From Chloroflexota bacterium (GTDB lineage Bacteria > Chloroflexota > UBA6077 > JAJPHF01): a stretch of 32,255 nucleotides of DNA. The position numbers were made by a program, and so were the translations under genes. Under the pieces are notes generated by a model, which saw only the letters and a program-made list of their open reading frames with translations, was not told the origin of the DNA and did not search any database. Positions 13,174 to 18,534 of the stretch are shown piece after piece (positions within the stretch are counted from its first letter, which is position 1; each line of letters begins with the position of its first letter). Location: NCBI GenBank assembly GCA_019686175.1, contig JADGHJ010000013.1:1-32255 (forward strand), given 5' to 3'.

Positions 13174-14691
13174 CTAGCCCGTGGCCTCCTCGGCCGGGCG
13201 GTCGGGCCGCGCCGCCCGGCGCAGCGGATGCGGGACGATCTCGCCGCCCGCCCGCTGCATCGCCTGACGGCGCAGCTCCTGGAGGCGCTCCGAGAACCGC
13301 ACGGGATAGGGAGGCGCGCCGTTCAGCGCCTTGTAGCGCTCGGGCAAGGCCTGGAGTTGCTCGCGGGCGTGCTCCCAGACCTCGCTGATCGGCGGGAGGC
13401 TGCCCGGCGCGATGCGGCCGTCGATCACCACGGGGCGCAGCAGGCGCTCCGCCTCGGCGGGAGGGGGTTCATCGGCCAGGCAGACGATGTCCTCGACGAA
13501 CGGGCCGCGCCGGTACACCTCCTTGCGGCCGGGCCAGGTCGTCTTGGGGCCCGCCACTTTGACGGGGTAGGCGTAGCTGCCGTCGGGCCGGCGATAGGCG
13601 ACCTCCTTGTACACCCCGCCTAGGGCGCCGCCCTCCACGCCTTGCTCGACGCCGCCCGCGCCTACCGCTAGCGCCGTGCCCACGCCGAATGCGTCGAACG
13701 GCGCCCCCTCGGCCAGCAGGTCGGCGATCTTCCACTCGTCGAGGTCCCCGCTGCCGAGGATCTTCACATCGTGCAGGCCCTCCTCATCCAGCACCTGGCG
13801 CACGTACTTCGCGTCGCCCACCAGGTCGCCCGAGTCGAGCCGCACCGCCGCCAGCCGGTGGCCCAGCCGGTCACGCACGCGCTTGGCCACTCGACAGGCG
13901 ATGTGGATCGCCCGGCGGGGATCGTAGGTGTCCAGCAGCAGCGTGTAGCGGTTGAAGGTCTCGGCGACCGCCTCGAACGCCTCCTCCTCGCTGGGGAACA
14001 GCTGCACCAGCGCGTGCGGGATCGAGCCGGTGGCCGGCAGCCGGAAGCGGAACGCTGCGGCCAGGAACGAGGTGGAGGTGCAACCCGCGATGTAACTGGC
14101 GCGGGCGACGGTGAACGGCTCCTGCGCGCGCCGCGCTCCGAATTCCGCCACGCGCCGCCCCTGCGCGGCGTAGACGACCCGTGCGGCCTTGGTGGCGATC
14201 AGCGTCGACAGGTTGATCGCGTGCAGCAGCCCGGATTCCAGCAGCAGCGCCTCGCAGAACGGCCCAGTGACGCGCAGTAGCGGCTCCTCGGGGAACACTA
14301 CCGTCCCCTCGGCCATCGCCAGCACCTCGCCCGTGAAGCGCAGCCGGCGCAGGTAGGCCAGGAAGGCACGGTCGTAGTCGCGGATCTGCTGCAGGAATGC
14401 GAGGTCCTCGTCGCTGTAGTGGAACGCCTGGATGAACTCCAGCGCCTGCTCCAGGCCGGCGAACAGCATATAGGCGCTGCCGAACGGCGCGCGCCGCGTG
14501 TATAGGTCGAAGGTGGTCTCCTGGAGCTTGCCCGCCCGCCACGCGACATAGGCCGCGTCTGGGTGGTAGAGGTCGGTCATCAGCCCGGGATGGTAGGCGA
14601 CATAGCTCCGGTTGAGCGCGGTATCGAGCAGCGGGCGATCGAGCGGGCCGCTGCCAACCTCCCCGCCGATGGTCAACGGCTCTTGGCTCAT
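13174..14691 (-). CDS. pncB: Nicotinate phosphoribosyltransferase
   Basis: 505 aa, ATG 14691, overlapping the pncA stop as ATGA. Converts nicotinate plus PRPP to nicotinate mononucleotide (Preiss-Handler NAD salvage). Family blocks: N-terminal DTALNRSYVAYHPGLMTDLYHPDAAYVAW (the DLY tract), FGARRAQ (the conserved F-x-x-RR phosphate-binding region), GCTSTSFLAA, AVRLDSGDLVGDAKYVRQ, SGDLDEWKIADLLAEGAPFDAFGVGT and C-terminal KVAGPKTTWPGRKEVYR. The length fits the long NAPRTase type. It is translated directly after the nicotinamidase gene, so the pair turns nicotinamide into NaMN in two steps. Confidence 0.95.
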   Translation of the reverse strand: MSQEPLTIGGEVGSGPLDRPLLDTALNRSYVAYHPGLMTDLYHPDAAYVAWRAGKLQETTFDLYTRRAPFGSAYMLFAGLEQALEFIQAFHYSDEDLAFLQQIRDYDRAFLAYLRRLRFTGEVLAMAEGTVVFPEEPLLRVTGPFCEALLLESGLLHAINLSTLIATKAARVVYAAQGRRVAEFGARRAQEPFTVARASYIAGCTSTSFLAAAFRFRLPATGSIPHALVQLFPSEEEAFEAVAETFNRYTLLLDTYDPRRAIHIACRVAKRVRDRLGHRLAAVRLDSGDLVGDAKYVRQVLDEEGLHDVKILGSGDLDEWKIADLLAEGAPFDAFGVGTALAVGAGGVEQGVEGGALGGVYKEVAYRRPDGSYAYPVKVAGPKTTWPGRKEVYRRGPFVEDIVCLADEPPPAEAERLLRPVVIDGRIAPGSLPPISEVWEHAREQLQALPERYKALNGAPPYPVRFSERLQELRRQAMQRAGGEIVPHPLRRAARPDRPAEEATG

Positions 14692-15287
14692 CCGCCCACG
14701 CCTACCGCGGGCCGGATCGTCGCCCCGGCCGCCCGCAGCTTCTCCAGGGCTCGCGCGCCGTCGCCGGGCTGCAAGTCGACGGCGCGGACCGCATCCTCCA
14801 GTACCGTGACGCGGAAGCCGTGGGCCAGCGCGTCTAGCGCCGAGGCCTGCACGCAGTAGTCGGTCGCCAGCCCACCGACATACAGGTGCCGGACCCCGCG
14901 CTCCCGGAGCAGCTCGGCCAGCGGGCGGCCCTGCTCATCGCGGGCCTGGAAGGCCGAGTAGGCATCTTCGTCGGGGCCCATGCCCTTGGAGACGATGAGC
15001 GCGCCGGGCGGGAGCCGGAGCGCTTCCGCGAACGCCGCGCCGGGAGTACCCTGCACGCAGTGCGGCGGCCACGGCCCGCCCTGTGGCTGGAAGTGCGTGG
15101 TGACGGCGGGGTGCCAGTCGCGCGACGCAATGACAGGGCGCCCGGCCGCCGCGAACTGCTCTGCCAGCGCGTTGAGCGGCGGGATCACGGCGTGGCCCTC
15201 GGGCACGCCCAGTGCGCCGCCGGGCAAGAAGTCGTTCTGCACATCCACGATCAAGAGCGCGCTATCTGGCTCGGGTGTCCAGCTCAT
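14688..15287 (-). CDS. pncA: Nicotinamidase (isochorismatase-fold cysteine amidohydrolase)
   Basis: 199 aa from ATG 15287, with GGGGAG 8 bases upstream; a TTG two codons earlier is less likely. Deamidates nicotinamide to nicotinate. Catalytic triad D15 (IVDVQNDFLPGG), K101 (IVSKGM) and C145 (LATDYCVQ) is visible, as is the metal site D57 and H59 (SRDWHP) with H76 (PPHCVQGT). These residues and the length are typical of PncA. The stop overlaps the pncB start (ATGA), so the two are translated together. The gene has a candidate extended -10 box at 15359-15367. Confidence 0.95.
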   Translation of the reverse strand: MSWTPEPDSALLIVDVQNDFLPGGALGVPEGHAVIPPLNALAEQFAAAGRPVIASRDWHPAVTTHFQPQGGPWPPHCVQGTPGAAFAEALRLPPGALIVSKGMGPDEDAYSAFQARDEQGRPLAELLRERGVRHLYVGGLATDYCVQASALDALAHGFRVTVLEDAVRAVDLQPGDGARALEKLRAAGATIRPAVGVGG

Positions 15288-15349
15288 CTTCAACTCCCCC
15301 CAAGCCGCACGGCCACGGTAGGTGAGCCTCGCGAGGTCGAGGCTGATCT

Positions 15350-15401: not shown

Positions 15402-16991
15402 CTATTGGCCGAAGCGTGGCACCGGTGGCGCTGGGGTAGGGCCGCTCGGCTGCGGCCCCAAGGTCGGTGGCAGTGGGCCACGCGCCGGTGCGGTGGGCGG
15501 CGGAGCGGACACCGTCGGTACGAGCGCTGGCGCCGCCGTCGGCCGCGCCGGTGCGACCGTGGGCCGCACCGCCGTCGGTGGCGCCGCGGTCGGGCGTGCA
15601 GCCGTGGGCGCCGGGGCGAACGACGAGCTGGGGGCCGTCGGCTGCAACAGCGGCGGCGCCGTGGGCCGCACCGCCGTGATCGCCGGCGAGGGGGGCGGCT
15701 CGGCCAACCGCGGCGCCGTGGGGACTGCGGTCGGCAGCAGTGGCGCGGTAGGGGCCTGGGCCGGTGCTGGCACCATTTGGCGTGGGACCTCGGGTTCGAG
15801 CGTTGGGTAGGCTGGTGGCGCCGTGGGCAGCGCCGCGGTGGCCGCGGGAGTCAGTTGCGCGGGCGGTGGTGACGGGCGCGGCCCCACCGGTGGGGCACCC
15901 AGAGTGGTGCGCCCAGGCGTCGCGTCGGGGCGCGGGGTGTTGAAGTAGTCGTACACCGCCTTGCCCAGCGCCGCCTGCGCTTGCCCCATGGCTGTGGCGT
16001 TGGGGGGGTCGCCGGCCAGCGTGACGACCACAATGGCAGCCGCAGGACTGTACACGATGGCCGCTTGCCCGACGACGCTGTTGTCGTTGGCCGAGCGCTG
16101 AACCACGACGGTACCACGTGGCAGCAGCCCGGGCAATCGGTCGGAGGGGCGAGCCTCCGCGAGGTAGCGCAACAATTCGGCGTTGCTAGCCGGGCTCAGT
16201 CCCTCGCCGCGCGCCAGCCGGTCGAGCAGAAACAGCAGGTCGCGCGGCGAGGTCGTGGCACGGTCGCCATTGACGCGCGACTCGAGCAGCCCCAGGTCGC
16301 TGAACGTGGCGTTGAGGTTGTGGGGGCCGAGGCGCTCGAGCAGGAGCGCGGCCATCGCCGGATCACCGCGGGTGAGCAAGCGATCGACGGCCCACCCGAC
16401 GCTCACGGTGCTGCCTGGCGGCGCCTCAGTCGGCCCCCGCCGGACCACCTCTTCTGTCACCCGCAACGGGTCGCTAAACGCCAACCGGTGGGTATCGCGC
16501 TGGTGGTACGCCTCGTAGGCGATCAGCAGCGATACTAGCGCGCCCGCCGGGAACTCGCGGTCGGCGTTGAACAGCACGCCCTGGCCCGACTCCAGGTTCT
16601 TGATCGCCACGCCGATGGCGGTGCGCTGCCCGCCCAGGTGCTGCTGGGCCAGGGCGGCCAGGCCCGGGTCGGCCACCAGCGGGCGGGCCCCGGCGTCCGG
16701 CACCGCTACCTCGGGGGGCTGCGGCGAAAGCGTGGGCAGCGGCGCGGGCGGCGTAGCTCCGGCCACCACGACCGTAGCGTGCTCCTGGGGGGTGCTCCCC
16801 AGCCCGAACGGATCGAAGCCCAGCGCCGCCTGCGCCACGACGATGACGAGCAGGCTTAGACCGAAGACCAGTAGAATGATCACAGCCGCGGTGCTAGCCG
16901 CGTCGCGGCGGCGCACTTGGCTGCGCCGCATCAGGCCGTTGGAGCGGCCAGGACGCCGGTCCGTGGCCCGCGGGGGTTCCTGAATCTGCAC
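15402..16991 (-). CDS. Membrane-anchored class A beta-lactamase-fold protein with lost active site and Pro/Thr-rich tail
   Basis: 529 aa from GTG 16991 (GGCGGAG upstream). Layout: basic N-terminus, one membrane span (about 35-57), short linker, beta-lactamase/serine-hydrolase fold (about 105-350), and a 170-residue Pro/Ala/Thr-rich tail with repeats such as PTAAPPTAVRPTVAP. The fold is recognisable from TAIGVAIKNLESGQGVLFNA, LLLERLGPHNLNATFSDLGL and TTSPRDLLFLLDRLARG. The catalytic motifs are all changed. The SxxK position reads ALVS (A151, S154), SDN reads GDP (199-201), and KTG reads QRS (298-300). So it is probably not a hydrolase but an exported binding or structural protein. The tail may cross or bind the cell wall. 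It is a single gene in its own transcription unit, divergent from dnaN. Confidence 0.85.
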   Translation of the reverse strand: MQIQEPPRATDRRPGRSNGLMRRSQVRRRDAASTAAVIILLVFGLSLLVIVVAQAALGFDPFGLGSTPQEHATVVVAGATPPAPLPTLSPQPPEVAVPDAGARPLVADPGLAALAQQHLGGQRTAIGVAIKNLESGQGVLFNADREFPAGALVSLLIAYEAYHQRDTHRLAFSDPLRVTEEVVRRGPTEAPPGSTVSVGWAVDRLLTRGDPAMAALLLERLGPHNLNATFSDLGLLESRVNGDRATTSPRDLLFLLDRLARGEGLSPASNAELLRYLAEARPSDRLPGLLPRGTVVVQRSANDNSVVGQAAIVYSPAAAIVVVTLAGDPPNATAMGQAQAALGKAVYDYFNTPRPDATPGRTTLGAPPVGPRPSPPPAQLTPAATAALPTAPPAYPTLEPEVPRQMVPAPAQAPTAPLLPTAVPTAPRLAEPPPSPAITAVRPTAPPLLQPTAPSSSFAPAPTAARPTAAPPTAVRPTVAPARPTAAPALVPTVSAPPPTAPARGPLPPTLGPQPSGPTPAPPVPRFGQ

Positions 16992-17111: not shown

Positions 17112-17388
17112 CACCACTGCTGGCTGAGGAAGTGTGACTAGTTTGTAATGGAGGACCTGTAACGTCTGCGCCGGACGTTGCGCCTCTCTCACGGGTTACC
17201 GGGCTGACCCGTGGCGCTGCCCTCACAACGCTCGGCCAATTTGTTACGGACGCTTTATGACGGCTCGTGCGCCGTGTGAGCCAGGCGTCGGCTACAGTGG
17301 AGCGGAGCGATCGTGTAGGGCCGGCGTGGGAGGCCCACCTCTTGGGGCCGCTATCGTAGGCGCGGTGAGGTGCGGAGGAGCGGAGTCG

Positions 17389-18534
17389 ATGAAGCTGTCC
17401 TGCCTGAAGAGCAACCTGCTGGAAGGGTTGAACATCGTCGGGCGGGTCGTCCCGTCCAAGAGCACGCTGCCGGTGCTGGCCAATGTCCTGCTGGCGACCG
17501 ACCATGGCCGGCTGAAGCTGGCGGCTACCAATCTCGAACTGGCCGTGAGCTGCTGGATCGGGGCGTCGGTGGCCAGCGAGGGCCGGGTGACCCTGCCGGC
17601 GCGCCTGTTGACCGACTTCGTGTCCTCGCTGCCCGACGAGCAGATCGAGATGAGCCTCCAGCCGAAGGGGCTCGCTATGCGGCTGGTGTGCGGGCGCTAC
17701 CAGGCGAACATCAAGGGGATCGACGCCGAGGAGTTCCCGCGCATCCCCGAGGTGGCCGACGCCACGACGTACGCCCTGCCGGCCAGTGTGCTGCGCGAGT
17801 GCATCCAATCGGTGGTGTTCGCCGCCGCGCCCGACGACACGCGCCCGGTCCTGGCCGGGGTGCTATTCACCCTGCGCGACGGGGCGCTCACGCTCGCGGC
17901 GGCCGACGGCTTCCGCCTGGCGGTGCGCAGCGCCGAGCTGAGTAGCATGCCTGATGAGCCGCTGAGCATGATCGTGCCGGCGAAGACGCTGGCCGAACTG
18001 GCGCGGCTGCTCGGCGACGGCGACGAGCAGGTGGAGATCGCCGCCACACCGCAGCGCAACCAGGTGCTGTTCCGGCTAGCGGGCCGCGCGGAGATCGTCT
18101 CGCGGCTCATCGAGGGCCAGTTTCCCGACTACCAGAAGATCATCCCGCGTAGCCATACGACCCGCGCGGTGCTGAACACCGCCGAGCTGCTGCGGGCCAC
18201 CAAGGCCGCCTCGGTGTTCGCCCGCGACAACGCGATGATCGTGCGCCTGGCGATCACGCCGGGGAGCGACGACTCGCTCGGCCGCGTGCAAGTGAGTGCC
18301 ACGGCGGCCGAGGTCGGCGACAACGCCGGCGAGGTCGACGCCAGCGTCGAGGGCAGCGAGATGCAGATCGCTTTCAACGGGCGCTACCTGCGCGATGCGC
18401 TGGAGGCGATCGACGCCGCGCAGGTCGGTCTGGAAATCGTCGGCCCCACCAATCCGGGCGTGCTCAAGCCGATCAGCGAGACCAACGGCTACCTGCACGT
18501 CATCATGCCCATGCAGATCAACCCGGGGCGCTAA
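17389..18534 (+). CDS. dnaN: DNA polymerase III beta subunit (sliding clamp)
   Basis: 381 aa from ATG 17389, with GGAGGAG 10 bases upstream. The frame is open 44 codons further up but with non-protein-like sequence. The ring-shaped dimer holds DNA polymerase on the template. Three repeated clamp domains: MKLSCLKSNLLEGLNIVGRV to about 120, YALPASVLRECIQSVVFAAAPDDTRPVLAGV to about 245, and the last from SHTTRAVLNTAELLRATKAASVFARDN. The C-terminal motif is the usual hydrophobic HVIMPMQI, lacking the MP(V/M)R(L/V) ending, with a short NPGR extension. dnaA, recF and gyrB are not beside it, so this is not the standard origin cluster. Confidence 0.97.
   Translation: MKLSCLKSNLLEGLNIVGRVVPSKSTLPVLANVLLATDHGRLKLAATNLELAVSCWIGASVASEGRVTLPARLLTDFVSSLPDEQIEMSLQPKGLAMRLVCGRYQANIKGIDAEEFPRIPEVADATTYALPASVLRECIQSVVFAAAPDDTRPVLAGVLFTLRDGALTLAAADGFRLAVRSAELSSMPDEPLSMIVPAKTLAELARLLGDGDEQVEIAATPQRNQVLFRLAGRAEIVSRLIEGQFPDYQKIIPRSHTTRAVLNTAELLRATKAASVFARDNAMIVRLAITPGSDDSLGRVQVSATAAEVGDNAGEVDASVEGSEMQIAFNGRYLRDALEAIDAAQVGLEIVGPTNPGVLKPISETNGYLHVIMPMQINPGR

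Follow-up and report, generated by a model that had tools for sequence, protein, structure and literature searches.

A gene in the window, a 32,255-nucleotide stretch of DNA from an uncultured Chloroflexota bacterium (contig JADGHJ010000013.1), probably encodes a membrane-anchored pseudoenzyme that descends from a PBP-A-like DD-peptidase and most likely serves to bind rather than to cut; both the function and the inactivity are what we infer. The protein is homologous to an enzyme family but has lost the catalytic residues. Pseudoenzymes as such are well known; the literature searched contained no described protein of the class A/PBP-A branch with all three catalytic motifs gone.

The gene occupies positions 15402 to 16991 of the minus strand and, as originally predicted, its frame is intact. 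It encodes 529 amino acids from a GTG initiation codon, an in-frame ATG at residue 21 being a possible alternative start. The N-terminus consists of about 30 Arg-rich residues and is the cytoplasmic end in the predicted N-in topology. It is followed by a membrane span at about residues 31-57, or more narrowly about 32-54 (16830 to 16898, minus strand; hydropathy up to 3.18), and by a short Pro-rich linker that joins the span to the globular core. The core, delimited with Pfam, AlphaFold and Foldseek, comprises residues 104-351 (15939 to 16682, minus strand) and would lie outside the membrane. The remainder, residues 352-529 (15405 to 15938, minus strand), is a tail recognized by its composition (57 Pro, 36 Ala and 23 Thr in 178 residues); it is presumably disordered, and GC content is flat over its three codon positions (0.80/0.79/0.79). 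Thus, the single-span tether and the Pro/Ala/Thr tail were both as predicted, except that the tail measures 178 rather than 170 residues. Within the same order, several relatives with intact motifs also have the span and the tail, which are thus no peculiarity of the dead copy. The whole protein contains only two lysines (K131 and K344) and no cysteine.

Residues 127-323 matched the Pfam family PF13354 (Beta-lactamase2) with an E value of 4e-29 and a score of 101.9 bits, against a curated cut-off of 22. The AlphaFold model of the core, obtained from an alignment with 61 relatives, had a mean pLDDT of 96.2 and a pTM of 0.93. Its top Foldseek match was PBP-A of Thermosynechococcus elongatus (2j7v; TM 0.92, E 1e-19), with LRA-5 and the class A beta-lactamases ranking behind; PBP-A was also the best match by sequence (25% identity). 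PBP-A (TLL2115; PDB 2j7v and 2j9o) is an active DD-carboxypeptidase/endopeptidase (PMC11189452). It resembles the window protein in fold and in the absence of a Glu166-type deacylating residue, and differs from it in possessing SxxK, SDN and KTG, all three of which the window protein has lost, and in being without the long Pro/Ala/Thr tail. Class A beta-lactamases (PER, TEM, SHV) share the fold as well, with TM values up to about 0.90; however, everything that defines them (Ser70-Lys73, Ser130-Asn132, Lys234-Thr-Gly and Glu166, the last with its region of the omega loop) is missing from the window copy. Among the intact PF13354 proteins nearest to the window protein, most have a short omega loop without Glu166, and automatic "beta-lactamase" names are therefore probably misleading for them. 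Since the close intact relatives have no Glu166 region, the lineage is expected, from sequence, to be that of PBP-A-like, DD-peptidase-type proteins and not of hydrolysing class A lactamases. The beta-lactamase fold noticed initially is thus confirmed, and its lineage is corrected to a PBP-A-like one.

The register of the catalytic motifs was taken from the alignments to PBP-A and to the 61 relatives, and the readings agreed with the DNA letters. The SxxK site (16530 to 16541, minus strand) reads ALVS, with A151 and S154 at the places of its Ser and Lys; the SDN site (16359 to 16367, minus strand) reads GDP (G209-D210-P211), with the Asp retained as D210; and the KTG site (16089 to 16097, minus strand) reads RSA (R299-S300-A301), a partly conservative replacement of Lys by Arg and Thr by Ser. 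The first two readings coincide with those made initially. The loss of KTG was also correctly noticed, but its replacement had been read as QRS, one residue out of register. In addition, the Asp downstream of KTG, which close relatives keep without exception, has become a Gln in the window copy (D309Q). The structure prediction that had been proposed as a check returned a PBP-A/class A fold in which the three sites occupy the positions where the family motifs belong: the start of helix 47-63 for SxxK, the loop joining helices 95-105 and 108-118 for SDN, and strand 192-199 for KTG (core numbering). The model thus retains the fold of a PBP-A-like DD-peptidase, with ALVS, GDP and RSA in place of the SxxK, SxN and KTG triads.

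An intact SxxK at another position, for example near S154, had been named as a way in which activity might persist. Scanning the entire 529-residue sequence revealed no SxxK anywhere, the only lysines being the two mentioned above. Lacking a nucleophile, the protein is not expected to form an acyl-enzyme and would be catalytically dead, as initially proposed. Motif loss alone is no proof of inactivity, and some pseudoenzymes regain activity with moved residues. The old pocket might accordingly house a new catalytic arrangement, involving for instance S154, S300, D210 and R299: the Asp of SDN is kept, the RSA side chains are similar to those of KTG, and a serine occupies the lysine position of SxxK. 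Yet the protein offers no serine with a lysine three residues on, no cysteine and just two lysines, whereas a Ser-Lys pair is essential to known PBP and beta-lactamase chemistry. An enzyme with shifted chemistry is thus quite improbable.

A relative is encoded in all 16 genomes of the order, in 25 of the 29 genomes of the class and in 106 of 400 genomes drawn from the phylum. The relatives surveyed were mostly picked by similarity to the window protein and not by motif, a further set coming from a motif-biased scan; because the alignment scan favors intact KTG and SDN, the census was based on the unbiased searches of genomes. The three motifs were kept in all of the readable relatives (about 115) as SxxK, S-x-N-type and K-x-G-type sequences, apart from minor variants (TDN, SDT and KTA, for example), and the window copy was the only dead one. 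The search for orthologues with the same lost motifs, suggested at the outset, therefore yielded none among the sampled relatives, nor was a close orthologue of the window protein found in GTDB contigs. The closest sequences, at 33-37% identity, are PF13354 proteins of the same order of Chloroflexota; they share the span-linker-domain layout, several having a Pro/Thr/Ala tail, and differ in that their motifs are all intact and the gene lies beside gpsA. One contig, JAJPGT010000060.1, is titled Proteobacteria bacterium (Centralia_MAG_106) but its genome falls within the window's order and has Chloroflexota relatives, and the title looks wrong. In the tree, the window copy branches beside 30 intact sequences, almost all of them from Chloroflexota, with moderate support (99/72), at the end of a long terminal branch (1.14 vs a median of 0.41).

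Conservation was scored with 25 intact relatives, of which at least 85% share the residue in each of the 40 columns used. The window copy has changes in 17 of these columns, whereas no relative among the 25 exceeds 7. Taken with the intact motifs of all readable relatives, this comparison of sequences indicates that the motif loss is not a chance sampling of the family. As the contig is metagenome-assembled, one might suspect that an intact gene was corrupted by assembly or sequencing errors. However, the replacements are in frame over 250 codons and far from any relative, codon structure is normal, and the same contig bears the genome's only dnaN, so that such an origin is barely credible.

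The changes are concentrated in the motif blocks, where 11 conserved columns were lost and 4 kept, vs 6 lost and 19 kept elsewhere (Fisher p=0.003, a value that serves only as a guide because the blocks were defined with the alignment already in view). Outside the blocks, the six changes are for the most part mild (Val to Ile and Met to Leu are examples), and the structural glycines, prolines and leucines are kept. GC contents at the three codon positions of the core (0.74/0.50/0.88) are like those of neighbouring working genes, intergenic DNA being at about 0.68. The sequence does evolve rapidly: core identity is 35% between the window copy and relatives, vs 49% between two equally distant families, while GpsA identity is 58% between the window genome and the others and 57% between two other families. 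Hence, the window core evolves faster than its relatives but is not free of constraint.

These rates, together with the long branch, the scarcity of stops in GC-rich DNA and the fact that no second dead copy is known, would suit an early-stage pseudogene, a dispensable enzyme adrift with its stop or frameshift still to come. Against this, multi-step codon changes are needed at about nine pocket sites, and codon structure, frame and structural residues are retained. Neutral drift was simulated from the present gene under a simple model of mutation that allowed no indels. When changes reached 0.5 per site, at least 8 of 9 pocket residues were changed in 12% of the runs, none of the 300 runs kept a stop-free frame, and GC3 fell to 0.75. 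Since drift deep enough to alter the pocket would have wrecked the frame, decay is unlikely, which agrees with the original prediction that this is not an ordinary decaying pseudogene. Together, these data, which come from one sequence in one metagenome-assembled genome, point, short of proof, to selection on the fold and to an active site that was released or remodelled. The replacement of the catalytic machine while frame and fold stayed intact suggests that the fold is probably kept for a non-enzymatic job.

The surroundings of the gene point to no particular partner. On one side lies a nicotinamidase-like/NAPRT pair, beginning with an isochorismatase-family, nicotinamidase-like gene (14688 to 15293, minus strand) that is codirectional and starts 108 bp after the pseudoenzyme stop; no sign of a function shared with this gene was found. 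On the other side is the divergent dnaN (17257 to 18534, plus strand), the only beta clamp found in the genome bin, which places the locus on a bacterial chromosome. Neither a partner, a ligand nor an operon logic could be identified here, and a scan for promoters and terminators gave nothing useful. There is no synteny with the loci of the intact relatives. In six of these the intact gene adjoins gpsA, plsY and riboflavin genes, most having cofD on the other side; this block is conserved in two families of Chloroflexota. Its genes are housekeeping and provided no functional link. In the window genome (425 contigs), the usual place beside gpsA is empty of a PBP-A-like gene; an ORF next to gpsA (contig L067, 10315 to 12162) reads, by eye, like a thiamine-diphosphate-dependent enzyme. 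No second PBP-A-like copy was found in this genome. Its only other PF13354 match was considered as an intact copy and rejected, being D-Ala-D-Ala carboxypeptidase-like with SLTK, SGN and KIG motifs. The peptidoglycan set is normal, with 7 transpeptidase and 4 glycosyltransferase domains, and peptidoglycan is thus presumably made.

The binding or sensing of beta-lactams, part of the original prediction, appears unlikely: BlaR1-type sensing requires an acylated serine, which is gone along with the SDN/KTG pocket, and the cytoplasmic end is short (about 30 residues) and carries no recognized domain. The closest precedent for a motif-less beta-lactamase fold in the envelope is, by analogy, MipB (PA1797) of P. 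aeruginosa, a lipoprotein without SXXK and with degenerate motifs 2 and 3, which despite the state of its motifs is the envelope part of a sensor and contributes to the sensing of polymyxin (PMC10936184). Like MipB, the window protein is envelope-anchored, has lost SXXK together with motifs 2 and 3, and carries an extra C-terminal part. It differs in being class A/PBP-A-like where MipB is AmpC-like, and in having a Pro-rich tail in place of folded barrels; furthermore, MipB works with MipA, whereas the neighbour genes examined at the window locus include no MipA-type barrel, regulator or two-component link. A sensor of beta-lactams or other antibiotics, of either the BlaR1 or the MipB kind, is thus very improbable.

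We therefore favor, as a best guess, a non-catalytic binding or scaffold role in the envelope. By analogy with PBP-A, the ancestor would have acted outside the membrane, cutting or trimming the stem peptides of peptidoglycan. In the window lineage, the Ser nucleophile, the Lys base, the Ser and Asn of SDN, the KTG triad and the following Asp would then have been replaced, while the fold, the membrane span and the wall-facing Pro-rich tail were kept. The folded domain, held in the wall zone outside the membrane, may bind another protein or a stem peptide of peptidoglycan. The latter is conceivable because some affinity for carboxylates may persist in R299-S300, the pair remaining where KTG stood; a protein ligand is equally likely. 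More tentatively, one can imagine that in this one Chloroflexota lineage a PBP-A-like DD-peptidase turned into a non-catalytic wall receptor by remodelling its pocket, acting as a reader of stem peptides or a holder of wall enzymes. If true, this would put the class A fold to a new, non-enzymatic use. The pseudoenzyme offers a natural test of the capacities left to the serine beta-lactamase fold once its nucleophile is lost; the test is a fairly clean one because the genome has no detected intact PBP-A-like copy for it to regulate.
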